Shown: positions 1-39,051 of the stretch, piece after piece
Numbering within the stretch: position 1 is the first letter of the stretch
Layout of the letters: the number at the start of each line of letters is the position of its first letter
Source of the DNA: Candidatus Magasanikbacteria bacterium CG_4_10_14_0_2_um_filter_33_14
Lineage (GTDB): Bacteria > Patescibacteriota > Patescibacteriia > Magasanikbacterales > UBA922
Assembly (NCBI GenBank): GCA_002793035.1
Contig: PFPL01000006.1
Location: 1 to 45,026, forward strand
Reading direction: 5' to 3'
DNA: 45,026 bases
Program-made: the position numbers and the translations under genes
The notes under the pieces: model-generated
Databases searched by the model: none
What the model was told of the DNA's origin: nothing
What the model saw: only the letters and a program-made list of their open reading frames with translations

Positions 1-3000
1 TGCACTTACTGAATAGGTTTTTAACCAGCCATTTCTATCTTTATCTTGATAAACAAGAGCCAAATAATTATCTGACAACTTAACCATTGAAACATTCCTA
101 TTTTGTAAACTACTACTTGAAACAGAATCAATACCAGCCGAACTCGGCATAGAATAAATATTACCTGTAGCGTCTACTCTAAACGATCTCAATATAGTTT
201 TTCCTAATTCCCAACTATATGGACTATACCAATCATAACTCAACACATACACATCACCACTCATATACATGATATTAGGATTTCTGTAAGCATAAGAATA
301 ATAAGGAGGCCCATTATCAGTAGCAACTGTATAACTACTAATAATAGTTCCAATCACCCCCGTAGAAGATATAGGTATCGTTTTTAAATAAAAAGTATCT
401 GCTTGATATAAGTAATCAAAACTTACAACATAAATATCAGTTGCATTTTCTACTTTGGCTATACTAAAATTTTGTGCGTTATCAGAAGGAGAATAATGAT
501 AAATAACAGAGCTAGCAATATAACTAAAAACTCCATTTACATCCACCGACACCGTAGCAACATAAGTATTAGAACCTGAAGAATATGCCAATGCCAAATA
601 ACCATCACTTAATTTTACAATACCTATTTCCTGACGATCATCACCTTCTGTAGTGGCAGTAGAATTTACAGTAAGAGTATAACTACCCAAATCATTTGAT
701 ATAGTAACACCATCACTAGAAATTCTTTTATTGATAATTCGCACAGTCCTTTTACCCGAACTAAAGTTATCTAAGTTATAAACGTAAGCATAAATATCTT
801 CTCTCACATGAACAATATCACTAGCATAAGCAGGTATACCAGCCAAAATAGTCTTTTCTATAGGCGAATCAGAAATCAAACCCAAAGGGGAACCAATGTG
901 TTTTAATCTAGCCATATCTTCCTCAAACTCTATTTTTTCACTATCATAAAGATACTCAGCAGAAGTCGTATAATCATACGTGATAGTATCAGTAAGACCC
1001 AAATAAACAAGTCTTGCTTGTCCACCAGAAACATCAATATATATTGAGTTATAATAATATTGTGAATAAGTAGAAAAATCCCAAACAGCAGTACTCGTAG
1101 TCAAAGCAGGTTTGACACCTACAATACCGTCTCTAAAATCTACTTTCCACTTATCATAAGTATATTCAGTTTTATCATTATAATCATAACCAAATTCCTC
1201 TTTACAATCCAAAGTTATCTTGTCCAACTCTATATTTTGCGTACCATCCCCATCGAAATATGCTTTGAAAGAAACAGGTCCTGTTGAAGTAGAAAAGCCA
1301 CTAATATGTAAACCAACTTCCTCAGCAGTATTGTAGTCTGTACTCAAAGTAGTAGTTGCCCAACTACTACCATCCCAATATTTCCAGTCACTACCGTTGT
1401 TATCTGAAAGCTGATAATATATTTCACCACCATTTGTCTTGGTAGAGACTTCATCAAAACCAACAAAACTACCAAAGCCAGAAGGTGTGTAAGAAATAGT
1501 AGGTTCTATCGTAGAAATACCACTGGAATATGAAACACCATAACCTGCTGAAAAAGTAAAAAGCAAATCTTTTTGATAGGTAGTATTACCTATACCATTA
1601 TTAACCATTACACCAAAATAATAGTTTCCCAACTGTACAATACTCGGAAAATTAACATCAGCAGTATAAAATTCATAAGTATCTGAAACAGTTCCGACAC
1701 TACCATCATCATTAATACTTACCAATTTTGCAAAACCGTCATTGTCAGGCCCTCTATAAGCAACGATATAGCTAGTACCCGTAATTTTTGCAAAATCTAA
1801 ATTATAAAGATAAGTGGCATCTATTTGTAAACTATTATTGGCCGGTTCAGAAATAACACCAGTAGTTGGGTCAACACTTACAGTCTGTACCCAACCAGTG
1901 ACTCCAGGTCCACTATAAACTACAGCATAAATATTACCACTCACATGTTCTATCTTAGAGTAAAGAACATAACTATCGAGTTGATAAGACTGAACATTTA
2001 CGGTATCAATCACACCGGTATTACTAATATTTATAGTCTTGAGTTGCAAAGTACCACCACTACCACGATACGAAATTAAAAACTGGTTACCTGTTGTTTT
2101 TTTAATATAAGGATAATCCCCTGCAACCGTATCAAAACTATATAAACTTATATAAGAAATAGCACCCGTTGTTGAGTTGACAGAAAATGTTCTAATTCTC
2201 CCTTGAGTTGTTGAGTAGCGATAAATAACAGCAAAATAACCAGGGCTAATTTCTTCCAAATAAGGATCATAAGAAGGTGAATCAACACCAGAATTATAAC
2301 TTTTTTGAGTAATAGTACTACCATCAGTAGAAACAGTAAAAGTTGTAAGACTTAAATATCTAGTAGAAGACTGAGTGTAATAAAATCTCTCAGCCGAAAC
2401 CACATACATATTATTTCCAACATATTTTACATCAAGATTTTTATAACCGTAATAAGAATAATAATAGCCTATATAAGTAGTCCTAATATTTGGTCTGACA
2501 ATCACACCTTCTGGACTTATTTCCATAGTTCTCACATAAATTCTTCCATAGTAACCGCCACCATAATAATAATAGCCGTAATTATAAACCATAGCATAGA
2601 TATCACCAGAAATATGGATAAGTTTATTCCTATAATAACTGCCATAATAAGCATTATTACTATAGTTATCAGTACTACCAATTATAGAACCGCCAAAACT
2701 CTCTATATTACTACTTTGGGTATAATTCAAATAAGCCTTACTACTAGCAATAGAAATTTCAGAAGAAGTATAGGTATATTCTTCGGCAGTGTCAAAATCC
2801 CAAGACTTAGCAATACAGCCTTCTCCACCAGCAAGCTCCATAATTTTTATTTCACCCGGTGTACTACTATAATCTACGAATTCATCAGCACTATAAAAAG
2901 CTGCCAAATCACTCAGGATACTCTGCCCCGGCCCACTACTCCAATCAGTCTGTGTCCATTCACGAGAATCCCAATTGGTTAGATAAAATTCTTTGACAAC

Positions 3001-3423
3001 AGAATTATTAAGACCTGGTCTTACTTCCCAAGCCACAGTCACTGTCACTTTCTTGGCCTGCAAATCTGTAGTAGTACCCGGACAAGTCGTAATCACATTA
3101 CTACCATCACGACAAACATCAGCGAATTCTACAGTTCTCGTATAATCACCTATTGTCTCTACATTACTACTTTCGAAAGACCAATCATAATCAGCAAAAG
3201 CAATAGTCGTACTAGAATAAAGATCATTCCAAGCACCGTCTTTGATAGCTCTTACAGATTCTACAGCTTCTATTGCAAGGGCTTCTGCTCTAGATTGTTC
3301 ACCACCTTGATTCAAGGCTGAAATATTTCCAACAGAAGTCTTAGCAATGCTAGAGGCCATCAAAGCAAAAATAGCCATAGCTATTATGACTCCTAAAATA
3401 CTTTGACCTTTACTAAACCTCAT
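1..3423 (-). CDS. Giant pilin-like surface protein, 3' end beyond the left window edge (at least 1141 codons)
   Basis: Manual reverse translation from the ATG at 3423 is open through position 1. N-terminus MRFSKGQSILGVIIAMAIFALMASSIAKTSVGN resembles a prepilin leader and hydrophobic helix; the rest is Ser/Thr/Tyr/Gly-rich with recurring HxSGxIYAxVY-like segments. Not in the supplied ORF track because no stop lies in the window. Confidence 0.88.
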   Translation of the reverse strand, partial: MRFSKGQSILGVIIAMAIFALMASSIAKTSVGNISALNQGGEQSRAEALAIEAVESVRAIKDGAWNDLYSSTTIAFADYDWSFESSNVETIGDYTRTVEFADVCRDGSNVITTCPGTTTDLQAKKVTVTVAWEVRPGLNNSVVKEFYLTNWDSREWTQTDWSSGPGQSILSDLAAFYSADEFVDYSSTPGEIKIMELAGGEGCIAKSWDFDTAEEYTYTSSEISIASSKAYLNYTQSSNIESFGGSIIGSTDNYSNNAYYGSYYRNKLIHISGDIYAMVYNYGYYYYGGGYYGRIYVRTMEISPEGVIVRPNIRTTYIGYYYSYYGYKNLDVKYVGNNMYVVSAERFYYTQSSTRYLSLTTFTVSTDGSTITQKSYNSGVDSPSYDPYLEEISPGYFAVIYRYSTTQGRIRTFSVNSTTGAISYISLYSFDTVAGDYPYIKKTTGNQFLISYRGSGGTLQLKTINISNTGVIDTVNVQSYQLDSYVLYSKIEHVSGNIYAVVYSGPGVTGWVQTVSVDPTTGVISEPANNSLQIDATYLYNLDFAKITGTSYIVAYRGPDNDGFAKLVSINDDGSVGTVSDTYEFYTADVNFPSIVQLGNYYFGVMVNNGIGNTTYQKDLLFTFSAGYGVSYSSGISTIEPTISYTPSGFGSFVGFDEVSTKTNGGEIYYQLSDNNGSDWKYWDGSSWATTTLSTDYNTAEEVGLHISGFSTSTGPVSFKAYFDGDGTQNIELDKITLDCKEEFGYDYNDKTEYTYDKWKVDFRDGIVGVKPALTTSTAVWDFSTYSQYYYNSIYIDVSGGQARLVYLGLTDTITYDYTTSAEYLYDSEKIEFEEDMARLKHIGSPLGLISDSPIEKTILAGIPAYASDIVHVREDIYAYVYNLDNFSSGKRTVRIINKRISSDGVTISNDLGSYTLTVNSTATTEGDDRQEIGIVKLSDGYLALAYSSGSNTYVATVSVDVNGVFSYIASSVIYHYSPSDNAQNFSIAKVENATDIYVVSFDYLYQADTFYLKTIPISSTGVIGTIISSYTVATDNGPPYYSYAYRNPNIMYMSGDVYVLSYDWYSPYSWELGKTILRSFRVDATGNIYSMPSSAGIDSVSSSSLQNRNVSMVKLSDNYLALVYQDKDRNGWLKTYSVSA

Positions 3424-3434
3424 AAATTTTGAAT

Positions 3435-3929
3435 TTAATTTTTCTCCACCTTTCCATACTCATTGACACTCACATTTTTACTGCCTGTTACACTATGTGC
3501 GAGGGTAAGTGCTCCAATATTATTTGGAATACTTAAACCACCTTTAGCAAAATTGATATCTATGTCATTACCTATCAAGGTAAAGCTACTATTGGTGATA
3601 GAAAGAGAACTCTTGAGTGTAGTCGTTAAATCATAAGCTACTTCTCTCAATTCATAAGAATCACCTTGATATATCGTAAAAGAATCAATACCACTACTAT
3701 CTATATCAAAATAAACACCATGAGCAGAATCATTTAAACCCACAAGAGATTGACCTCGAGCGGTCCTAAGTGCTTGCACAACATCAGACGATGTATCAAG
3801 CAACTGTAACTTGACTTGAAAACTTCCATATACTGGTACAGCAGCCGCCATCAAAATTCCACTAATAGCCAAAACAACTATTAACTCTAAAAATGTAAAA
3901 CCTCGTTTATTATAGTTTATAAAGTTCAT
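3435..3929 (-). CDS. Type II/IV pseudopilin (GspH/FimT-like)
   Basis: N-terminal KRGFTFLELIVVLAISGILMAAAVPVYGSF, canonical prepilin peptidase site with Glu at +5. Confidence 0.9.
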   Translation of the reverse strand: MNFINYNKRGFTFLELIVVLAISGILMAAAVPVYGSFQVKLQLLDTSSDVVQALRTARGQSLVGLNDSAHGVYFDIDSSGIDSFTIYQGDSYELREVAYDLTTTLKSSLSITNSSFTLIGNDIDINFAKGGLSIPNNIGALTLAHSVTGSKNVSVNEYGKVEKN

Positions 3930-3966: not shown

Positions 3967-4433
3967 TAAAATCAAATAACAAAATCCAAATGTCAAGTCA
4001 ATTTCAAATGATAAATACCAAATCATTTATTATATTTACTTTTATTAATTATACTTGAGAATATCAACGTCAGTTCGTGCACTTCCTTCCATAATTTTCT
4101 ACATTCTTCTATCCTATTCTCATTAGCTTTTGCCAACATTTTTAACCAATGTTCTGTTTCTTTAGATTCTTTTTTACAAATAGATATTTTATGAATAAAA
4201 TCTTTTTTTGACTCAGCTCCATCTGCCTCCATATAATTAGCCCCGATACTTGTAGCTGATCTTACTATCTGGTCTATCAATCTATTATTTACGTTATCTC
4301 TTACCAATGTTTTCACAAAATCTATTATATCACCCCCAAATTTTGAGGTCCTTTCAACTAAATCATACACTTTCTTGTCATTTGTACTTTTAGATTGATT
4401 TGTAATTTGGATTTCGTCATTTGTAATTGCAAC
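3967..4433. repeat. Imperfect inverted repeats of about 45 bp flanking the S23-family gene
   Basis: Left arm AAATCAAATAACAAAATCCAAATGTCAAGTCAATTTCAAATGA (about 3972-4012); right arm TCATTTGTACTTTTAGATTGATTTGTAATTTGGATTTCGTCATTTG (about 4379-4424), largely reverse complementary. Confidence 0.65.
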
Positions 4434-4442
4434 CCCCTCCAT
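4023..4442 (-). CDS. Four-helix bundle protein (S23 / 23S rRNA intervening-sequence protein family)
   Basis: Family-typical core RSATSIGANYMEADGAESKKDFIHKISICKKESKETEHWLKML. Confidence 0.88.
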   Translation of the reverse strand: MEGVAITNDEIQITNQSKSTNDKKVYDLVERTSKFGGDIIDFVKTLVRDNVNNRLIDQIVRSATSIGANYMEADGAESKKDFIHKISICKKESKETEHWLKMLAKANENRIEECRKLWKEVHELTLIFSSIINKSKYNK

Positions 4443-4505: not shown

Positions 4506-5591
4506 CTAGCCTTTAATATTGCCCGTAATATTATATATCGGCGTAATGATAGAAATAGCTAAAAAACCGACGACAATACCTATAAATAATAATAAAATTG
4601 GTTCAAGAGCAGTAGACAAAGTCTTAGTAGAGTTATCCACTTCCTCTTCATAAAAATCAGCAATATACAACAAAGTATCTTCCATTTTTCCAGCTTGTTC
4701 ACCTACATAAACCATACGTGAAACCATCTTTGGGAAATATTGTTCATACTGTTTGAGACTTTCAGAAGTTTTGACACCTTTTTTGATACGAAGCGAAACG
4801 TCTTTCAAAGCTTTTTTATAATAATAATTATCAAGTGATTTTTCAGTCACGTTCAGAGCTTCGTCAATACTAAGCCCACTACGCAAAAGACTACCAAAAA
4901 TACGTGAAAAACGAGAAAGATTGGTATTGCGCACCAAATTTTTTATGATAGGAAAATGTAAAAGTATCCAATGTGTAACTGGATGAGAAAATTTTTGTTT
5001 TACCAAAACTATGAGAAATATAATACCTATACCAATAGACCAGAGCAAGGCAGTATGGTGATCACTAATAAAATTGGAAAATGCTATAAGTGCTCGTGTA
5101 CTCCAAGGTAAATCCATTTTCATACCTTCAAAAAGAGGAATAATCTTTGGTAAAATAAAAAATGACATTGCTAGAGCTAATGCAAATGAAGCGGTAAGCA
5201 CAATAACGGGATAAAGCAGAGCACCTTTTACTTTTTCTAATAATTGTTTTTCTTTTTTGAGAGTTTCAGACAAATTAGCCAAGTTTTCTGCCAAAGTACC
5301 AGATTTTTCACCAGCATAAATAGAACTAATAAAAATTCCCGAAAAAACATTGGAATGTCTAGCAAAAGATTCGGCCAAAGTATTACCAGATTTTACAGAA
5401 AGCAAAATATCTTCCAAAATATTTTTTAATCTACCCTGATTGGAATCAATAATAATTGAAAGTGATTCTACAATATCAATACCAGATTTTTGCATGACAG
5501 AAAGATTTTTGGCCAAAAGTGCTTTTTGATTCAGACTAACTAAACCAATCGAAAAATCTTTTTTAAAAAAATCTGTACTTATTTTTTCCAT
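4506..5591 (-). CDS. pilC: Type IV pilus / type II secretion inner-membrane platform protein (PilC/GspF)
   Basis: Two GspF-like repeats (LAKNLSVMQKSGIDIVESL; FGSLLRSGLSIDEALNV; MVYVGEQAGKMEDTL) plus TM segments. Confidence 0.93.
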   Translation of the reverse strand: MEKISTDFFKKDFSIGLVSLNQKALLAKNLSVMQKSGIDIVESLSIIIDSNQGRLKNILEDILLSVKSGNTLAESFARHSNVFSGIFISSIYAGEKSGTLAENLANLSETLKKEKQLLEKVKGALLYPVIVLTASFALALAMSFFILPKIIPLFEGMKMDLPWSTRALIAFSNFISDHHTALLWSIGIGIIFLIVLVKQKFSHPVTHWILLHFPIIKNLVRNTNLSRFSRIFGSLLRSGLSIDEALNVTEKSLDNYYYKKALKDVSLRIKKGVKTSESLKQYEQYFPKMVSRMVYVGEQAGKMEDTLLYIADFYEEEVDNSTKTLSTALEPILLLFIGIVVGFLAISIITPIYNITGNIKG

Positions 5592-5613: not shown

Positions 5614-7320
5614 TTAAAGTTGTGTCACTCTCATTACTTCCTGAATAGTGGTCACACCATTCAAAACTTTTTCGATACCATCATAGAGCATAGTTGTCAT
5701 ACCATTTTCCTTGGCTTTTTTCAAAATAACATCACTTGAAGCATGTTGTAAAATAAGATTTCTAATACTTTCGTCAACTTCAATAACTTCAAAAATCCCA
5801 AAACGATCACTATAACCACTGTTGTTACAAATTTTACAACCAACACCCTTATAAATTCTAGAACTTGCGAAATCTTTTACTTTCAAATCTGATAAAATAG
5901 CTTGAAAATCTGAGTTTTCAGTTAGTACAGATAACTCATCCTTGGTAAGCTTATAAGAAGTACGACAATGATTACATATTTTACGTACCAGACGCTGAGC
6001 AATTACTAGATTGACAGTCGATGACACTAGGAAAGGCTGTATACCCATATCCAACAGACGAGGCAAAGCGGTTACAGCATCGTTGGTATGAAGAGTAGAA
6101 AGTACAAGATGACCTGTAAGTGCCGAATTGATAGCGATGTCAGCAGTCTCAGCATCACGAATTTCACCAACCATCAGAATATCTGGATCTTGACGTACAA
6201 GAGCACGTAGACCTTTGGCAAAAGTCAGATTAGTCTTAGGATTTACTTGAATCTGGACAATTCCTTCCATATCATATTCAACAGGATCCTCTATTGTTGC
6301 CAAATTTATTTCACGTTTATTCAAAATTTTTAAAATAGAATAAAGCGTAGTCGTCTTACCACTACCGGTAGGACCAGTAACCAAAATCATACCATGAGGA
6401 TTTTGTATGGCTTTTTTTACTTTTTTTAGGTTATCACTAGAAAGTCCCAAATCAACCAAACCAAGCTGTCTATTTTTTGGATAAAGCAAACGCATTACGA
6501 TATTTTCACCATAGGAAATTGGCACTATTGAAATACGAATATCTAACCAATTTTTATTTATCAAATAACGCATTTTACCGTCTTGAGCAGCAAAATGAAT
6601 ATCTGTGGCCATCTTGGCCAAAATTTTGATACGAGTCAAAATAAAACTAAGAAAATCAGCAGGAGCCTGACCTTTTTCTACCACAAAGACATCATGCATC
6701 ACCCCATCGATACGAAAACGAAAAGTTACTCTATCAACTTGAGGAGTAACGTGTATATCTGAAGCTCTATTTTCAAAACCATATTTAAGTATCATATCTA
6801 CAAATTCAACAACAATATCATCTCTTTCTTCATTACTAAGCTTAGTGTTATTTAGACTTTTCAAAATCTTTTGTACTTCGACATCAATATCTGAACCATA
6901 AACGGATAAAGCTCTATTCAAATCTTCGTCATCAATATAATAAACATTGACCACTTGTCCCAATTTTTTTTCAAGAAAATTCTTTGTTTCCAAATCTTTG
7001 GGATTTTGCATGCCAACTTTTACTCCATGTTCATCAGCATTTATAGCTACTACGCCTTTGTTTCTAGACACTAGCTCAGGAATCATCTTCACCACATCTT
7101 CATCTACTCTCTCATTGCCTAAATCTATATAAGATACACCAAAATATTCGGCCACAGCTTGACCGACAATTTCCTTACTCAAAACATTCTCCACAAAAAA
7201 ATACTCAATCAAATTGGTATTATGTGACTTAGCATATTTTTTGGCATTAGTGAAGTCTTTTTCTTCAATATAGCCTTGATCTAATAAAATTTCTTGAAGT
7301 TGTTGCTCAGAAAACTGCAT
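5614..7320 (-). CDS. pilB: Type IV pilus assembly / GspE family ATPase
   Basis: Walker A GPTGSGKTTTLYSIL, Asp box, LRALVRQDPDILMVGEIRDAETA, CxxC motifs near CNHCRTSY and CKICNNSGY. Confidence 0.95.
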   Translation of the reverse strand: MQFSEQQLQEILLDQGYIEEKDFTNAKKYAKSHNTNLIEYFFVENVLSKEIVGQAVAEYFGVSYIDLGNERVDEDVVKMIPELVSRNKGVVAINADEHGVKVGMQNPKDLETKNFLEKKLGQVVNVYYIDDEDLNRALSVYGSDIDVEVQKILKSLNNTKLSNEERDDIVVEFVDMILKYGFENRASDIHVTPQVDRVTFRFRIDGVMHDVFVVEKGQAPADFLSFILTRIKILAKMATDIHFAAQDGKMRYLINKNWLDIRISIVPISYGENIVMRLLYPKNRQLGLVDLGLSSDNLKKVKKAIQNPHGMILVTGPTGSGKTTTLYSILKILNKREINLATIEDPVEYDMEGIVQIQVNPKTNLTFAKGLRALVRQDPDILMVGEIRDAETADIAINSALTGHLVLSTLHTNDAVTALPRLLDMGIQPFLVSSTVNLVIAQRLVRKICNHCRTSYKLTKDELSVLTENSDFQAILSDLKVKDFASSRIYKGVGCKICNNSGYSDRFGIFEVIEVDESIRNLILQHASSDVILKKAKENGMTTMLYDGIEKVLNGVTTIQEVMRVTQL

Positions 7321-7361: not shown

Positions 7362-7730
7362 TTAAAGACCTAAAACTTTTTTAACATGATCTACTACTTC
7401 AGAAATAGTAGTGTCAGACTTAACAAAATAATCTTTGGCACCCAAATCCATAGCTTTTTCAATATCTTCTTTTTGATTCAAATTAGTAGAAACAATAACA
7501 GGTACCTTATTTTTAATTTCTTTAAGATCACTTAAAACAGAAAAACCATCTTTGTTTGGCATCATCAAATCAAGTAAAAGCAAATCATATTTACCAGCTT
7601 GAAGCTCCTTGACAGCACTAACTCCATCAAAAACGACAGTCGTCTCAAAACCAGCTTTATTAAGTTTTATCTCCAAAGCTCTTGCCATTGGTTTTTCATC
7701 CTCCGCGATTAAAATTTTCTTTTCAGTCAT
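7362..7730 (-). CDS. Stand-alone response-regulator receiver domain protein
   Basis: KKILIAEDEKPM...LLLLDLMMPNKDGFSVL...VIVSTN...GAKDYFVKSD; 122 aa, no output domain. Confidence 0.93.
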   Translation of the reverse strand: MTEKKILIAEDEKPMARALEIKLNKAGFETTVVFDGVSAVKELQAGKYDLLLLDLMMPNKDGFSVLSDLKEIKNKVPVIVSTNLNQKEDIEKAMDLGAKDYFVKSDTTISEVVDHVKKVLGL

Positions 7731-16332: not shown

Positions 16333-17475
16333 TTATTGTACTTGTCTTATAGTAATTTCTACTTTACTAGCAACATGAGGTACTTCTCTAACCCAGGCAG
16401 GATGAAAGTTCATTTCTACACTACTAACATGAATCAAAGCCATAACATAACGACGAACTTCATCTTCAGTTTTACCATAAAACATTATTTTTTGTAATTC
16501 ACGACTATTTGGGTCCAAATCCACAAGTCCTGAATTGGTAACAGTCAATTTGGCAGTACCCTCTTCAAAATCATATTTACTCAAAACTACACTAGGTTCT
16601 TCACTAGCAGATTGCAAGACTTCACTATTATCCACAATATGTTTTTCAAGCATATCTTTTGAATAATTTTTAAGAGATTCTTCATCATAGAATACTCCCA
16701 CGACAGTCGCTTTACCCGTTACATTGAAACTACTTATTTCAGCACCCTGTTCTCCATCATTTTCAAAAGTATATTGTACTACATCAAAGAGACCTTTTTT
16801 ATCACTATTTTGTGTTCCCAACATTTCGATACCTTTTGTCTTCAAATCAGCCAAAAGACTATTTTGAGCATTTGTTAGATCTTCTTGACTAAAGACACCT
16901 ATAGTTTTTACACCACCTGTCATAATGGCTTCACTTTTAGCATAAATCAATTTTTGTTTAGCTTCGTTAAGACCTGGAATTGTAAAATTACTAGGACCAA
17001 TATTTCCACTTTCTCCTGCTTTGTCAGCATAGACTTCAGCTGTAACTTGTCCACCAGCAGGTACGGTTACACCAGATTTGAGACGGAAAAGTAATCCCTC
17101 AGGTGTCATAAAACGAGTAGTAGATATAAGTGGTTGTGCCGCACTTGAATCATTGATAATAATTAATTCTCCTGTAGCTATCGCATCTTCTGTTTTGTTA
17201 CCTTTTGGACTATAAGCTTTGCTCAATTCTACAAAAGTAGAAGTAACAAAACCTGAGACAATAGAGCTATCGTCATTTGGATTGATATCAATAACAGTAT
17301 TGACCTCTACAGGGTCTGCTTTTGTAACGATAGTAATTTCAGCTCTTTTGGAAGACATAAAAATAATTCCACCCAAAAGAACGATAGTAATTACTAAAAA
17401 AGTCAAAGCTACAAATTTGTAAAAACGAACAGGTTGTCCATAAGCACCACCTGTATTTAGTTGGTCACTAACCAT
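16333..17475 (-). CDS. Single-pass membrane protein, possibly baseplate J-like
   Basis: One TM (FVALTFLVITIVLLGGIIFM); VTVPAGGQVTAEVYADKAGESGNIGPSNFTIPG resembles the baseplate-J fold motif. Confidence 0.55.
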   Translation of the reverse strand: MVSDQLNTGGAYGQPVRFYKFVALTFLVITIVLLGGIIFMSSKRAEITIVTKADPVEVNTVIDINPNDDSSIVSGFVTSTFVELSKAYSPKGNKTEDAIATGELIIINDSSAAQPLISTTRFMTPEGLLFRLKSGVTVPAGGQVTAEVYADKAGESGNIGPSNFTIPGLNEAKQKLIYAKSEAIMTGGVKTIGVFSQEDLTNAQNSLLADLKTKGIEMLGTQNSDKKGLFDVVQYTFENDGEQGAEISSFNVTGKATVVGVFYDEESLKNYSKDMLEKHIVDNSEVLQSASEEPSVVLSKYDFEEGTAKLTVTNSGLVDLDPNSRELQKIMFYGKTEDEVRRYVMALIHVSSVEMNFHPAWVREVPHVASKVEITIRQVQ

Positions 17476-17519: not shown

Positions 17520-19253
17520 TTAATCTATAACTCTAAATACCTCATCAATAGTAGTCATCCCTTTAGATGCTTTTATTATACCATCTTGAACCATAGACGT
17601 CATTTCTTGTTCTCTTGCCATCTCTTGAATAGCCAATTCTGAAACTTGTCCAGACAAAATCATTTTTTCTATTTCATCTTTTACAACAAATACTTCATAA
17701 ATACCAACACGTCCTTTATAACCAATATCACTACATTTTTCACAACCCACTGCTTTATAAAATTTGGTAGTAGTCAAATCTATTCTAAATTTTTCTGGAG
17801 TACTACTTACTTGTTCTTGTAATCTTTTTTGAGTGTGTTCATCAAAATCAGCAAAAGATATTTCTTGGCGACAACTTTCACACACACGACGTACTAGACG
17901 TTGTCCCATCACACAATTTAGAGCTGGTGCCAAAAGAAATGGTTGAATCCCCATAGAAAGAAAACGAGGGATAGCTCCAAAAGCACTATTGGTATGAAGT
18001 GTAGAAAGCATCAAATGCCCTGTCAAAGCTGCTTGCACAGCGATTTCACTTGTCTCTGCATCACGGATTTCACCAACCATCACGATATCAGGATCTTGAC
18101 GCAAAATAGAACGCAAACCAGAAGAAAAATCATAATTTTTACTATGATCAATCTGACTTTGATTGACACCTTCCATACGATATTCGACAGGATCTTCCAA
18201 AGTAATTATTTTTACACCTGGTTTATTCAAAATATGCAAAACTGCATAAAGAGTTGTTGTTTTACCACTACCAGTAGGACCAGTAGTAATAATCATACCA
18301 TTTGGTCTTTTTATTTCTTCACTCAAAACTTGAAAATCTCTTTCTGAAAGTCCCAGATCATCCAATTTTATTCCATCTTGTTTTTGAACCAAAAGACGCA
18401 TCACAACACTTTCACCAAACACTGTTGGAATAGTAGAAACACGTACATCCACATCATATTCTGGTAAATGAATAGTAAAACGTCCATCTTGTGGTTTGGT
18501 AGTGATATTAATCTTAAGAGCAGAAATAAGCTTGATACGAGACAACAATTTTTGAAATACCTCTTTTTTTATTTCAGCGATATCTTGCAAAATACCATCC
18601 AAACGAAAACGCAATACTACTTTTTCTTGTTCAGCTTCTACATGGATATCAGAAGCATTTACCTTAAGAGCAGCTCCCAACATCACAGTAACTAAATCTG
18701 TTGTATTACTTTTACTAACAAGTTCTTGAACACTGGAAAAATCATTTACGCTATCCCCTACTTTTTGTAAATCTTCTGCTTTGATATCCAAATCTTTTGT
18801 AATAGGTTTGATATTTGGTAGATTATCATAAAGTTTCATAACTCTAGCCAAACTAGTTTCGGAAATCACATAAAGAGAACCGTTGCTATATCTTTGCTTT
18901 GCTATTTCTTCTAATAATTCTTTTACTTCTGGATTTTCTGGATGAAGAGTTGCCAAACGAAATTCTTCTGCACTCACATAAAAACAAACAACAGACAATT
19001 TTTCAGCTGTTTCTCTTGAAACAACTTTGAGAGCATCTTGACTAATAGGAAAATTTATAAGATTAATATGTGGTAAACCAAAATCAGCAGCATGACCTTG
19101 AGCCAAACTTTCTAATTCTTTTTTCTTTATATCCTCCATCTTATTACTAAACTTATCTTCTACATCTTGAGCTTTAGTACTATTCTTAGTATTTTTTAAT
19201 TGAGGATTTTGATTGTTTATCAAATCATTGATTGAACCAAAAGCATTTGCCAT
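17520..19253 (-). CDS. Second GspE/PilB family ATPase
   Basis: GPTGSGKTTTLYAVLHIL, LRSILRQDPDIVMVGEIRDAETSEIA, CESCRQ and CEKCSDIGYKGR. Confidence 0.94.
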   Translation of the reverse strand: MANAFGSINDLINNQNPQLKNTKNSTKAQDVEDKFSNKMEDIKKKELESLAQGHAADFGLPHINLINFPISQDALKVVSRETAEKLSVVCFYVSAEEFRLATLHPENPEVKELLEEIAKQRYSNGSLYVISETSLARVMKLYDNLPNIKPITKDLDIKAEDLQKVGDSVNDFSSVQELVSKSNTTDLVTVMLGAALKVNASDIHVEAEQEKVVLRFRLDGILQDIAEIKKEVFQKLLSRIKLISALKINITTKPQDGRFTIHLPEYDVDVRVSTIPTVFGESVVMRLLVQKQDGIKLDDLGLSERDFQVLSEEIKRPNGMIITTGPTGSGKTTTLYAVLHILNKPGVKIITLEDPVEYRMEGVNQSQIDHSKNYDFSSGLRSILRQDPDIVMVGEIRDAETSEIAVQAALTGHLMLSTLHTNSAFGAIPRFLSMGIQPFLLAPALNCVMGQRLVRRVCESCRQEISFADFDEHTQKRLQEQVSSTPEKFRIDLTTTKFYKAVGCEKCSDIGYKGRVGIYEVFVVKDEIEKMILSGQVSELAIQEMAREQEMTSMVQDGIIKASKGMTTIDEVFRVID

Positions 19254-35287: not shown

Positions 35288-36865
35288 CTAAATTAAAGCA
35301 TGTCCTTTCATTTCCTCAGGCTTATCTATCCCCAAAACTTTAAGGATTGTTGGAGCAACATCTCCCAACACACCAGACTTTGGTAACAAACTAAGATCTT
35401 GATCAGGTGAATCACCTACTCTACCAGCAACACCAAACAAACTTTCTTTAATAATAAAAAATGGTACATTATTGGTACTGCCATTTTTTTCAGTACTTTC
35501 CGTCTGAATGTTCAAAAAGCTTTCAGCATTACCATGGTCTGATGTTATAAAAAGTACTCCATCTTCAGCCAAAACATAATCAGCAATTTTTCCAATATTT
35601 TTATCAATAATTTCACAAGCTTTTATAGTAGCAGTAAGATCTCCCGTGATAGAAATAGATTCTGCTGAAGCAAAATTAGCCAAGATAAAATCATATTTTT
35701 CTGATTTTATAGCTTTGATTACTTCTGAAGAAACTTTACCAACACTCATTTCAGGAACATCTTTATAATTTTCTACCTTTTGAGATGGAATCATCTTCCA
35801 CTCATCGTTATTAAATCTTTCATCGTACATACCATTGAAAAAAGAAGTAACACATGGATACTTTTCTGTCTCAGCAATACGAATTTGTGACAATTCATTT
35901 TTACTCAAAATTTCTGATAAAGAATTATGAATATATGAACGTAAAAAAGCAACAGCGACAGGTATCTCTTTTTCATAATTAGTCATAGTTACAAAAAAAA
36001 GATTTCTCAAATACTTCCTATCAAAAGGGGCAAAGGCTGGTAACACAAAAGCTTTAGTCAATTGACGACAAAGACTTGCTCCAAAATTTGTAAAAATCAC
36101 AGCATCATTGTCGTTTATAATTTTTGTACCTTTTTTTTGTCCAATAATAGTTGGGACAAATTCTGTGTCATACACTTTTCTTTTATAGGAATCAGTTATA
36201 GCGTCAAAAGTAGTTTCAAAGTTATAATTACTTTGACCATTTACCATAGCTTCATACGCATGTTTTGTTCTATCCCAATGACGACTATTATCAAGAGCAT
36301 AATAACGACCCGATATTGTAACTATTTTCCCCAAGCCAATCTCTGACATTCTCGCTTCTATATTTTGCAAATGGACTTTACCACTATTGTATATGTCATC
36401 TTCACCATCCAAAATAGCATGTACAAAAACTTCTTTTATCCCTTTATCTTTAATAAGATTTAACAAAGCAAAAAAATGTTCATCATTGGCATTGTGAAAC
36501 TGATTACCAAAAAGACTAATAATATGCAAAGCAGAATTATTTTCTATAGCATGTTCACAAGCTGAGACGAAAGCTTTGTTTTCAAAAAAACTACCATCTT
36601 CTATAGCTTGATTTATTCTTGGTAATATTTTTTTGTAAATTCTACCAGCTCCCAAATTCAAATGTCCTATCCTAGAATTACTTACTTCAAAATCAAGCAG
36701 ACCTACATCTGGACCAGAAGCACCCAAACTCATCACAGGATATTGACTAGCGAACTTATCTAAATTGGGAGTATGAGCTTTCGTAATAGCATTACCTTGA
36801 GTATCTGGAGCTAGACCCCATCCACTAAGTGTAAGCAATACTGCTGGTTTTGGACGATTTATCAT
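35288..36865 (-). CDS. Degenerate iPGM-like protein (predicted pseudoenzyme)
   Basis: Homologous end to end with the adjacent iPGM (NSRIGHLNLGAGR, TSDHGNAES, DVAPTILKVLGIDKPEEMKGHALI), but many catalytic residues are substituted (see findings). Confidence 0.88.
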   Translation of the reverse strand: MINRPKPAVLLTLSGWGLAPDTQGNAITKAHTPNLDKFASQYPVMSLGASGPDVGLLDFEVSNSRIGHLNLGAGRIYKKILPRINQAIEDGSFFENKAFVSACEHAIENNSALHIISLFGNQFHNANDEHFFALLNLIKDKGIKEVFVHAILDGEDDIYNSGKVHLQNIEARMSEIGLGKIVTISGRYYALDNSRHWDRTKHAYEAMVNGQSNYNFETTFDAITDSYKRKVYDTEFVPTIIGQKKGTKIINDNDAVIFTNFGASLCRQLTKAFVLPAFAPFDRKYLRNLFFVTMTNYEKEIPVAVAFLRSYIHNSLSEILSKNELSQIRIAETEKYPCVTSFFNGMYDERFNNDEWKMIPSQKVENYKDVPEMSVGKVSSEVIKAIKSEKYDFILANFASAESISITGDLTATIKACEIIDKNIGKIADYVLAEDGVLFITSDHGNAESFLNIQTESTEKNGSTNNVPFFIIKESLFGVAGRVGDSPDQDLSLLPKSGVLGDVAPTILKVLGIDKPEEMKGHALI

Positions 36866-36879
36866 AATAATTTTTATGT

Positions 36880-37458
36880 TTATTTTACTTCCTCCCAAAT
36901 GAAATAAGTGGTTTTATCTTCTTGTACTTCTTGATATCCTTCTTGTTTGAATTGATTATCTGTTAAAAAAACTTCAAACATGTGATTTATATATTGTGAT
37001 TGTAAACCTGGATAACTTGGCGACTTCTTCAACTGTTTTTGTGTTTCTTTTTCTTGTAAATCAATAGAACCATCAATACCGAGTTCTTCTTGTAAACCAC
37101 GTTTCATGACAGAAATAGGATCTTCACCTGGGACCATTTTTTCTGAGACTGATTGAGGTAAATAATCACGGACTCTTTCTCGACCATCTTTAAAAATTTG
37201 TTTCAATTCTTTCAATTTAAATAATTTACCTTCTGGAGAACTATAAAATACATGTGCTTTGGACCCCTCAACAGTTCTTAAAAGTTCTCCATTTTCATTT
37301 ACAAGCAATACACTTTCTCCAGCATCTATTTCTTTTTGAAGATGAGCCAAAGTCTTGGCTTCACCTTGTCCAAACTTACTAGTATCAATACCAGCAGATT
37401 CCAATTGCATTTTCAATGATTCCAATCTTCTTTCAAAATTTTCTATTTCTTGATACAT
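36880..37458 (-). CDS. Nudix-like protein
   Basis: EDPISVMKRGLQEELGI resembles a Nudix box with substitutions; N-terminal coiled-coil-like segment. Confidence 0.65.
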   Translation of the reverse strand: MYQEIENFERRLESLKMQLESAGIDTSKFGQGEAKTLAHLQKEIDAGESVLLVNENGELLRTVEGSKAHVFYSSPEGKLFKLKELKQIFKDGRERVRDYLPQSVSEKMVPGEDPISVMKRGLQEELGIDGSIDLQEKETQKQLKKSPSYPGLQSQYINHMFEVFLTDNQFKQEGYQEVQEDKTTYFIWEEVK

Positions 37459-37467
37459 AAATAATTT

Positions 37468-39051
37468 CTAAATTAAAGCCTTTCCAGTCATTTCTTCTGG
37501 TTTGTCAATATTTAATACTTTCAAAATTGTTGGTGCCACATCTGCCAATCTCCCTATCTTCAACTTTTGTTTTTTATCATTACTAATCAAAATAAAGGGA
37601 ACAGGATTAGTCGTATGAGAAGTCATAATTTCCCCTGTCTTTTCATCAAACATCTTTTCAGCATTACCATGATCAGCCGTAATAAACAATTTGCCATTAC
37701 GAAACAATACATAATCTACCAGTTTTTTGACCTGTCCGTCAAGTATAGACACCGCAACTTTGGCCGCCTCAAAATTTCCAGTATGACCTACCATATCAGC
37801 ATTTGGGAAATTGATAGTCACAAAATTATAAGTATCTTTTTTCAAATAATCCAAAACAATATCAGTAATTTCTTGCGCATGCATTTCTGGTTTGTCAGCA
37901 TAAGAATAATGTGCTCCTGATTTTACCATTTGTCTTTTTTCACCATTGATAGGTTCAGAAAAACCACCATTGATAAAATAAGTAACATGAGCGTACTTCT
38001 CTGTTTCAGAAATATAAAGTTGATCATAATTTTCACCAATAGCTTTGGCTAAACAATTTTTGAAATCAGGGCTTGGAAAAGCAGTAAAAATACCCGGCAA
38101 ATCTGGTCCAAAATCTGTCATCGCTACAAAACGAATATCTTTGGGAATTTTTTTTCTTTTGAAAGCTCCTGGATTCATTTTTTGAAAATCTTTTTGCACA
38201 AAAGATTTGGTAATTTGACGAGATCTATCACTCCTGGCATTGAAAAAGAAAACGACGTCATTATCTTCTATAGTTGCAATAGGTTTACCACCTTTTTTTA
38301 TTACCGTTGGCAGAATATATTCATCTGTTTCATCTCTATTGTAAGCTTGAGAGATAGCTTCTTCAGCGCTCTCAGCAGAAAGTCCAACACCTAAAACCAT
38401 AGCATTGTAAGCTTGTTCAGTCCTACTCCACATCTTATTTCTATCCATTCCATAAAATCTCCCCATGATAGTAGCAATTTCTTCCCCATTTTTCATATTT
38501 TTACGCAAAAGACGCAAAAAATTTACAGCACCATGTGTCGAAGAATCACGACCATCAGTAAACAAATGAAGAAAAACTTTTTTCTGTCCTTGCTTACGCA
38601 AATATTCAAGCAAAGCATAAATATGAGCAGGATTGGAATGAGCACTCTGTCCATCAGTCAAAAGTCCCATAAGATGTACAGCGCTTTTATATTTTTTAGC
38701 ATGAAAAAGAGCATGACGAAAAGAATCATTTTTGAAAAATGTTCCATCTTTTATAGCCGTGGAAATACGCACCAAATCTTGCTCCACTACTCTACCAGCA
38801 CCAATATTCAAGTGTCCTGCTTCAGAGTTACCTTCTTGATTGGGGAAAAGCCCAACATCTTTACCACAAGCTTTTATTTCAGTACTAGAATATTTTTTAA
38901 TATAAGAAAAAATATTTGGTGCAGTATCTGGCGTGATAGCATTGCCAGTATTTTTTGGATCAGCCAAACCAAAACCATCGAGAATCATGAAGACGACGGG
39001 TTTACTATCTTTGATGTTATCATTTTTTTGTGAGTCTATTTTTTTTAACAT
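37468..39051 (-). CDS. gpmI: 2,3-bisphosphoglycerate-independent phosphoglycerate mutase
   Basis: MILDGFG, EGNSEAGHLNIGAGR, LFTDGRDSSTHG, GRFYGMDRNKMWSR, NARSDRSRQ, NADMVGHTG, ITADHGNAE, SHTTNPVPF. Confidence 0.96.
   Translation of the reverse strand: MLKKIDSQKNDNIKDSKPVVFMILDGFGLADPKNTGNAITPDTAPNIFSYIKKYSSTEIKACGKDVGLFPNQEGNSEAGHLNIGAGRVVEQDLVRISTAIKDGTFFKNDSFRHALFHAKKYKSAVHLMGLLTDGQSAHSNPAHIYALLEYLRKQGQKKVFLHLFTDGRDSSTHGAVNFLRLLRKNMKNGEEIATIMGRFYGMDRNKMWSRTEQAYNAMVLGVGLSAESAEEAISQAYNRDETDEYILPTVIKKGGKPIATIEDNDVVFFFNARSDRSRQITKSFVQKDFQKMNPGAFKRKKIPKDIRFVAMTDFGPDLPGIFTAFPSPDFKNCLAKAIGENYDQLYISETEKYAHVTYFINGGFSEPINGEKRQMVKSGAHYSYADKPEMHAQEITDIVLDYLKKDTYNFVTINFPNADMVGHTGNFEAAKVAVSILDGQVKKLVDYVLFRNGKLFITADHGNAEKMFDEKTGEIMTSHTTNPVPFILISNDKKQKLKIGRLADVAPTILKVLNIDKPEEMTGKALI

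Follow-up and report, generated by a model that had tools for sequence, protein, structure and literature searches.

The first 3,423 nucleotides of the window (45,026 nucleotides, the entire contig C24 of a genome, G000, of 1.10 Mb in 71 contigs) carry on the minus strand the front half of a pilus subunit of Candidatus Magasanikbacteria that is predicted to reach roughly 2,300 residues. The frame itself is confirmed: it begins MRFSKGQSILGVIIAMAIFALMASS and runs for 1141 codons with 0 stops to the window edge, where it is still open, as the sequence-only reading had described. The gene is cut because the contig ends there and not through the choice of window, and it is missing from the ORF track, as had also been noticed, since the track takes closed ORFs only. 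The frame is far beyond chance, given that both the frame and its protein are conserved in relatives (66.7% identity in the pilin domain). We consider it likely that the product of the gene is a giant modular minor pilin with ~2,316 residues, which occupies the PilV/GspI place and carries a tip-exposed, target-binding passenger with exchangeable propellers. The presence of a very large pilin-type subunit within a type IV pilus operon, proposed earlier, is borne out by the ORF, the operon genes, an AlphaFold2 model, a blade HMM and Foldseek. The features of the gene are the following (window positions, unless a locus is given).

1..3423 (-), giant modular pilin, N-terminal half: open ORF of 1141 codons
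3406..3423 (-), prepilin leader MRFSKG, six residues, from sequence and alignment A1, with predicted cleavage after Gly6
2974..3423 (-), pilin module, aa 1-150, conserved family domain (AlphaFold2 model)
1606..2640 (-), putative beta-propeller 1, aa ~262-606: six blades by HMM and a weak seventh by eye
1198..1494 (-), YYW repeat module 1, aa 644-742, by HMM and tblastn self-matches
859..1170 (-), three short EYxYD motif repeats, aa ~752-855, read from the sequence
1..819 (-), first five blades of putative propeller 2, aa 869-1141, by blade HMM, with two further blades on contig C37
L007:428-3880 (contig C37 of the same genome), giant pilin, C-terminal half: open frame of 1150 codons ending the gene

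The rest of the gene, expected beyond the contig edge, was thus recovered within the same genome, where a search with the giant gave matches on C24 and C37 only. On C37, a gatA fragment and a 47-N join precede the 1150-codon frame, which is followed by PilW-like, PilX-like, PilM-like and pilin genes. In the sister genome G001, the orthologue is intact (2059 aa) and lies in the same gene order; our N-terminal half aligns to its residues 4-1266 and the C-terminal half starts at 1292, leaving ~25 codons absent at the junction. Since the two halves tile this intact orthologue, the full gene should comprise ~2,316 codons, and the size given by the first reading, while rightly called very large, was understated, the protein being about twice what could be seen from C24. 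We infer the junction, because the contigs do not overlap (the overlap test returned only chance matches of 8-9 bases). This lack of shared sequence, together with the doubtful join that the scaffold contains (a gatA fragment and 47 N on C37, with an intact gatA elsewhere), could speak against a single gene and for a pair of distinct large genes, or for an artefact of scaffolding. We regard this as highly improbable, considering that in G001 a single intact gene is bordered by the same genes at either end, that the halves abut within ~25 residues, and that the blade count closes at seven, five blades on C24 and two on C37 completing propeller 2 across the junction. Moreover, in a second sister genome, G003, the same gene is likewise split over two contigs, which there do overlap, so that it is broken in two of the three genomes. 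As for the gatA fragment itself (L007:1-427), the 47-N join is probably spurious, either a scaffolding error or a foreign fragment, since C67 carries an intact gatA, and the stretch examined around this intact copy does not match the fragment at the nucleotide level.

The protein starts with MRFSKG/QSILG, a short leader ending in Gly followed by ~21 hydrophobic residues, as expected of a class III signal peptide, and a prepilin peptidase gene is found elsewhere in the genome (L016:221-994). The prepilin-like N-terminus with Gly at +5 (MRFSKG/QSILGVIIAMAIFALMASS, codon GGA) therefore stands as first read. In the AlphaFold2 model (residues 1-626, 12 sequences, mean pLDDT 62, pTM 0.53), a long helix (9-61) is followed by a beta-sheet (strands 74-149), which suggests, with moderate confidence, the classic outline of a pilin; aa 151-263 have no resolved structure in this model. 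The usual annotation criterion for type IV pilins is a match to Pfam N_methyl (PF07963) above its curated cut-off of 21.2 bits, and the giant stays below it (12.3 bits by hmmscan, 18.3 bits in the genome search), while a homologue with Glu at +5 passes with 22.8 bits. A profile of the pilin domain run against solved structures gave only weak pilin-helix matches among chance ones, and phmmer with the 1141-aa half gave no match to solved structures. The giant likewise had no match in NCBIfam, nor to a GspI/PilV family (NCBIfam; Pfam T2SSI).

The genes upstream of the giant, and the PilX-like gene downstream of it on C37, are listed below.

7362..7730 (-), response-regulator receiver domain, head of the operon (PF00072)
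5614..7320 (-), PilB-type extension ATPase of the accessory pilus (PF00437, PF05157)
4506..5591 (-), PilC-type platform protein (PF00482)
4023..4442 (-), 23S-rRNA-intervening-sequence-type protein, 139 aa (PF05635, 63.5 bits), between pilC and the small pilin
3435..3929 (-), GspH/FimU-type minor pilin, 164 aa (PF07963, 34.7 bits)
L007:4486-4878, PilX-like subunit, 130 aa, at the K/PilX place in the operon, lacking Glu+5

The receiver-PilB-PilC-pilin string recognized in the sequence-only reading is present, but the giant is not its last gene, as C37 adds PilW-, PilX- and PilM-like genes and a pilin gene, and the 23S-rRNA-intervening-sequence-type gene separates pilC from the small pilin; in the ORF maps of G001 and G003 no such gene was seen at this place. 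The small pilin also matches the GspH model TIGR01708 below cut-off (E 2.9e-7). Our genome has, in this order, a GspH-like gene, the giant, a PilW-like gene (which matches GspJ below cut-off, E 0.005) and a PilX-like gene, and the order in G001 is receiver, pilB, pilC, GspH-like pilin, giant, pilW-like, pilX-like, pilM and pilin. By its place between the H- and J-type pilins, the giant would be the I/PilV minor pilin of an HIJK-type set. In G001, a Bro-N domain gene (L037:5277-6116, -), likely an insertion, lies between the giant and pilW-like genes; it is absent there in G003. Downstream of the pilin genes (L007:7256-11236) are a 389-aa membrane protein and a 933-aa dCache-PAS-histidine kinase. 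The presence of a histidine kinase at one end of the operon and a receiver domain at the other suggests that it is tied to a sensory pathway.

This locus is accessory. The genome encodes three PilB-type ATPases and one PilT-like ATPase, and the PilB of the giant's locus has 85% identical orthologues only in G001 and G003 among the genus members searched (its nearest named relative, also at 85% identity, is from Candidatus Magasanikbacteria RIFOXYD12_FULL_33_17). No orthologue was found in G002, G004 and the five other family members searched, which all have at least one of the other two PilB types. One of these is encoded within the window (17520-19253, -; T2SSE 414 bits); it adjoins a 380-aa membrane protein that has no Pfam match (16333-17475, -) and is not accompanied by pilin genes. 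As it is the sole PilB type in G007 and G017, both rated ~99-100% complete, it is the most conserved of the three.

The operon place and the +5 residue together bear on the suggestion, made from the sequence alone, that the giant is an analogue of GspK, the large minor pilin of type II secretion that also lacks Glu+5. On such a reading, the protein would be a GspK/PilX-type cap that seals the pilus tip and for this reason lacks Glu+5, and its large size, Gly+5 and pilin-type N-terminus all fit. However, the K/PilX place, which differs from that of the giant, is taken by the separate 130-aa protein, itself without Glu+5. The residue is Gly in our genome and in the sister genomes (GGA, GGG), whereas 45 of the 47 distinct mature N-termini of homologues have Glu and two have Gly (41 Glu and the two Gly were scored by script, and four mis-parsed N-termini were read by eye as Glu). 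Since nearly all homologues carry Glu+5, Gly+5 is a late, genus-level change and not a tip-cap signature of the family. In addition, T2SSK (PF03934) matched none of the pilins, the only, sub-threshold, match being on another contig (C33), and the extra domain of GspK is an alpha-domain (PMC8179133). We thus discarded the GspK assignment on the basis of operon place and Glu+5 in homologues, and a tip-cap role is judged quite unlikely. The profile match to known tip proteins that had been suggested as a check was not obtained for PilC/PilY1 either, as neither half of the giant matched PF05567; a search of the whole genome with this model, run without a positive control, was also blank.

The passenger behind the pilin module is built from three putative beta-propellers of seven blades each, four YYW repeats and one Laminin-G/ConA-like domain, and it ends in a conserved C-terminus. 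The blade profile, seeded by eye and then iterated, counts 6 + 5 blades on the N-terminal half and 2 + 7 on the C-terminal half. Sets of seven are also found in relatives (7+7 in G022, 7 in G005 and 7 in G016), while G001 has eight matches in the first propeller and six in the second, and so the number of seven is not uniform. The propeller 1 region was modelled with pLDDT mostly 70-89 from aa 330, and the best Foldseek matches of the model were the seven-bladed Photorhabdus lectins PHL/PLL (E 2e-8; TM 0.61-0.68 by target length, at 11-13% sequence identity), which support the propeller fold but not a ligand. Three more YYW copies are encoded on C37, giving four in the protein, as in G001 by HMM, and the EYxYD repeats have similar weak profile matches in G001. 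The C-terminal half contains a Laminin_G_3 domain (E 3e-20), which, like the propeller fold, is not specific to pili and places the protein among modular pilins. The C-terminus has the pattern YRVEL-GDG-TP-NYK in common with orthologues; an AlphaFold2 model of the C-terminal 679 residues of the G001 protein reached a mean pLDDT of only 37 and was set aside. Beta-propellers and ConA-like folds are also found in sialidases and glycosidases, and the Foldseek matches include the sialidases NanB/NanC and a beta-fructosidase, so a role for the passenger in taking up DNA, or as a processing enzyme at the tip of the pilus, is conceivable. This is very unlikely in our view, because the best matches are non-catalytic lectins and no catalytic domain family was matched on either half.

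The comparison of G001 with G003 revealed a mosaic, which is the new observation here: between these two sister genomes, the propellers are far more diverged than the pilus machinery, which is 96-99% identical. Identity is 98.9% for PilB, 99.4% for PilC, 97-99% for the small pilins, 95.7% for PilM and 97.5% for the pilin module of the giant, versus 70.7% for propeller 1 (compared part) and 56.8% for propeller 2; LamG (80.9%), the YYW modules (87.7-97%) and the C-terminus (95%) complete the series. Synonymous divergence is 0.50 and 0.91 in the propellers, whereas the machinery has 0.04-0.18. At the nucleotide level, identity goes down to 73-82% over propeller 1 and 53-75% over propeller 2 and rises again module by module. 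This pattern suggests that modules were replaced by recombination with divergent copies, as exchanged specificity modules would be. The result concerns one genome pair, since G002 and G004 lack the PilB of the giant's locus and the other members of the genus were thus unusable for this comparison. The data do not support diversifying or positive selection on the propellers, as dN/dS stays under 1 for all modules (0.24-0.38 for the variable modules), nor silent stored cassettes as the source of variation, the sole matches to the giant in its genome being those on C24 and C37. The same divergence bears on another view of the passenger, in which it would serve chiefly as a structural or shielding stalk (a coat or surface fibre borne on the pilus) instead of a specific adhesin. 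Large, repetitive, beta-rich modules would suit such a role, as would the existence of very long relatives with quite different modules, such as the G015 homologue (2009 aa, no blades). On the other hand, lectin-like propellers and LamG are module types of binding proteins, and divergence is far more rapid in the propellers than in the modules that flank them, which is what one would expect of recognition surfaces. We therefore hold a stalk to be unlikely.

A normal pilin anchor thus probably carries a string of lectin-like, fast-changing modules that could be used for target recognition. In the mechanism that we propose, prepilin peptidase would remove the six residues of the leader, and the N-terminal helix would enter the pilus at the PilV/GspI place with the small GspH-, PilW- and PilX-like pilins. 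The bulky passenger would fit only at or near the pilus tip, where the propellers and the Laminin-G/ConA-like domain may attach to glycans or proteins of the target, be it a cell or a surface, a job done in Proteobacteria by the non-pilin adhesin PilY1. If lineages exchange propeller modules, the binding target would change with them, and retraction of the pilus, for which the genome encodes the PilT-like ATPase, would draw the cell towards the target. In this scheme, the cleavage, the ligand and the partner are all putative. The earlier idea of a pilus-tip adhesin is plausible and reasonable, and a tip-exposed adhesin is the most likely role, where we infer the tip location from bulk and precedent only, and the function by analogy with known systems. 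More tentatively, the giant might be a host-range determinant comparable to phage receptor-binding proteins, in which propellers swapped as cassettes from lineage to lineage, set among a fixed pilin module, YYW spacers and C-terminus, would let an accessory pilus decide the partner cells of an episymbiotic Magasanikbacterium; we consider this possible but doubtful.

Among known systems, those of S. sanguinis include modular pilins that act as adhesins and bear vWA and ConA-like lectin modules (PMC8179133, PMC9934059). There, PilB (vWA) and PilC (Ig-like and ConA-like lectin) are minor pilins of one operon with the pilin module first and the binding modules behind, as in the giant, with which PilC shares the LamG/ConA-like fold. 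However, they have ~450-500 residues against ~2,316, lack the multiple propellers and YYW repeats, and PilC has Glu at +5 where the giant has Gly. In Saccharibacteria, PilX2, a pilin with a seven-bladed propeller (RCC1-type), is needed for full host binding; like the giant, it is a patescibacterial minor pilin of a second, dispensable pilus system, but it has one propeller and a reported non-canonical signal peptide (PMC12206443), whereas the giant has three putative propellers, LamG and the PilV place. The PilC/PilY1 tip adhesins (PF05567), encoded beside minor pilins, share with it the fixed-plus-variable design, i.e., a conserved docking part, a seven-bladed propeller and a variable passenger (PMC13190605), yet PilY1 is not a pilin. 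An InterPro survey lists modular pilins in Ca. Magasanikbacteria and Falkowbacteria (PMC8179133, Fig. 8), thus in the same lineage and with a pilin motif and extra domains, PF13385 among them. This survey required a recognized pilin motif together with a recognized extra domain; the giant lies below the Pfam pilin cut-off, and the multi-domain extreme in the survey had 860 residues versus ~2,316. In the literature available to us, this protein family is not described for Magasanikbacteria other than in that mention. The giant is thus a real, extreme variant of modular pilins and not a GspK homologue.

Homologues of the pilin domain were found in 16 of 46 family genomes (E <= 1e-31), in keeping with an accessory locus, in open frames of 292 to 2064 residues, some of them truncated by contig ends. 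Weaker relatives occur in 145 of 380 other Patescibacteria (E <= 1e-10), many with just 150-250 residues, and a homologue is found there at the same place, after pilB-pilC. The giant is thus an enlarged version of a PilV-like minor pilin that is itself widespread. Passengers differ among relatives, with three LamG domains in G013 and LVIVD repeats with LamG in G005, and LamG or related folds are present in four of the five tested. Modular pilins thus attain a length of no less than 2,059 residues (the intact G001 protein), with ~2,300 probable, and they are hidden by fragmented assemblies and motif cut-offs, as seen in the split contigs and the sub-threshold pilin motif described above. A fixed anchor with fast-changing lectin-like modules offers concrete, separable pieces through which host recognition by ultrasmall Patescibacteria could be studied.

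Some further observations were made. In G029 (L051:8647-11432), the giant gene is split into frames of 499 and 409 codons by a frameshift, a stop or an assembly error. A 607-aa pilin-type protein with Glu+5 is encoded near the core PilB (L015:4591-6414, contig C52 of G000), and homologues of ~600 aa recur across the family; matches of the A1 profile to this protein and to small PilW-type pilins were judged to reflect the shared N-terminal helix only. Within the window, a NUDIX-like ORF without a Pfam match (36880-37458) lies between two tandem, diverged copies of cofactor-independent phosphoglycerate mutase (35288-36898 and 37468-39051, -; iPGM_N and Metalloenzyme).
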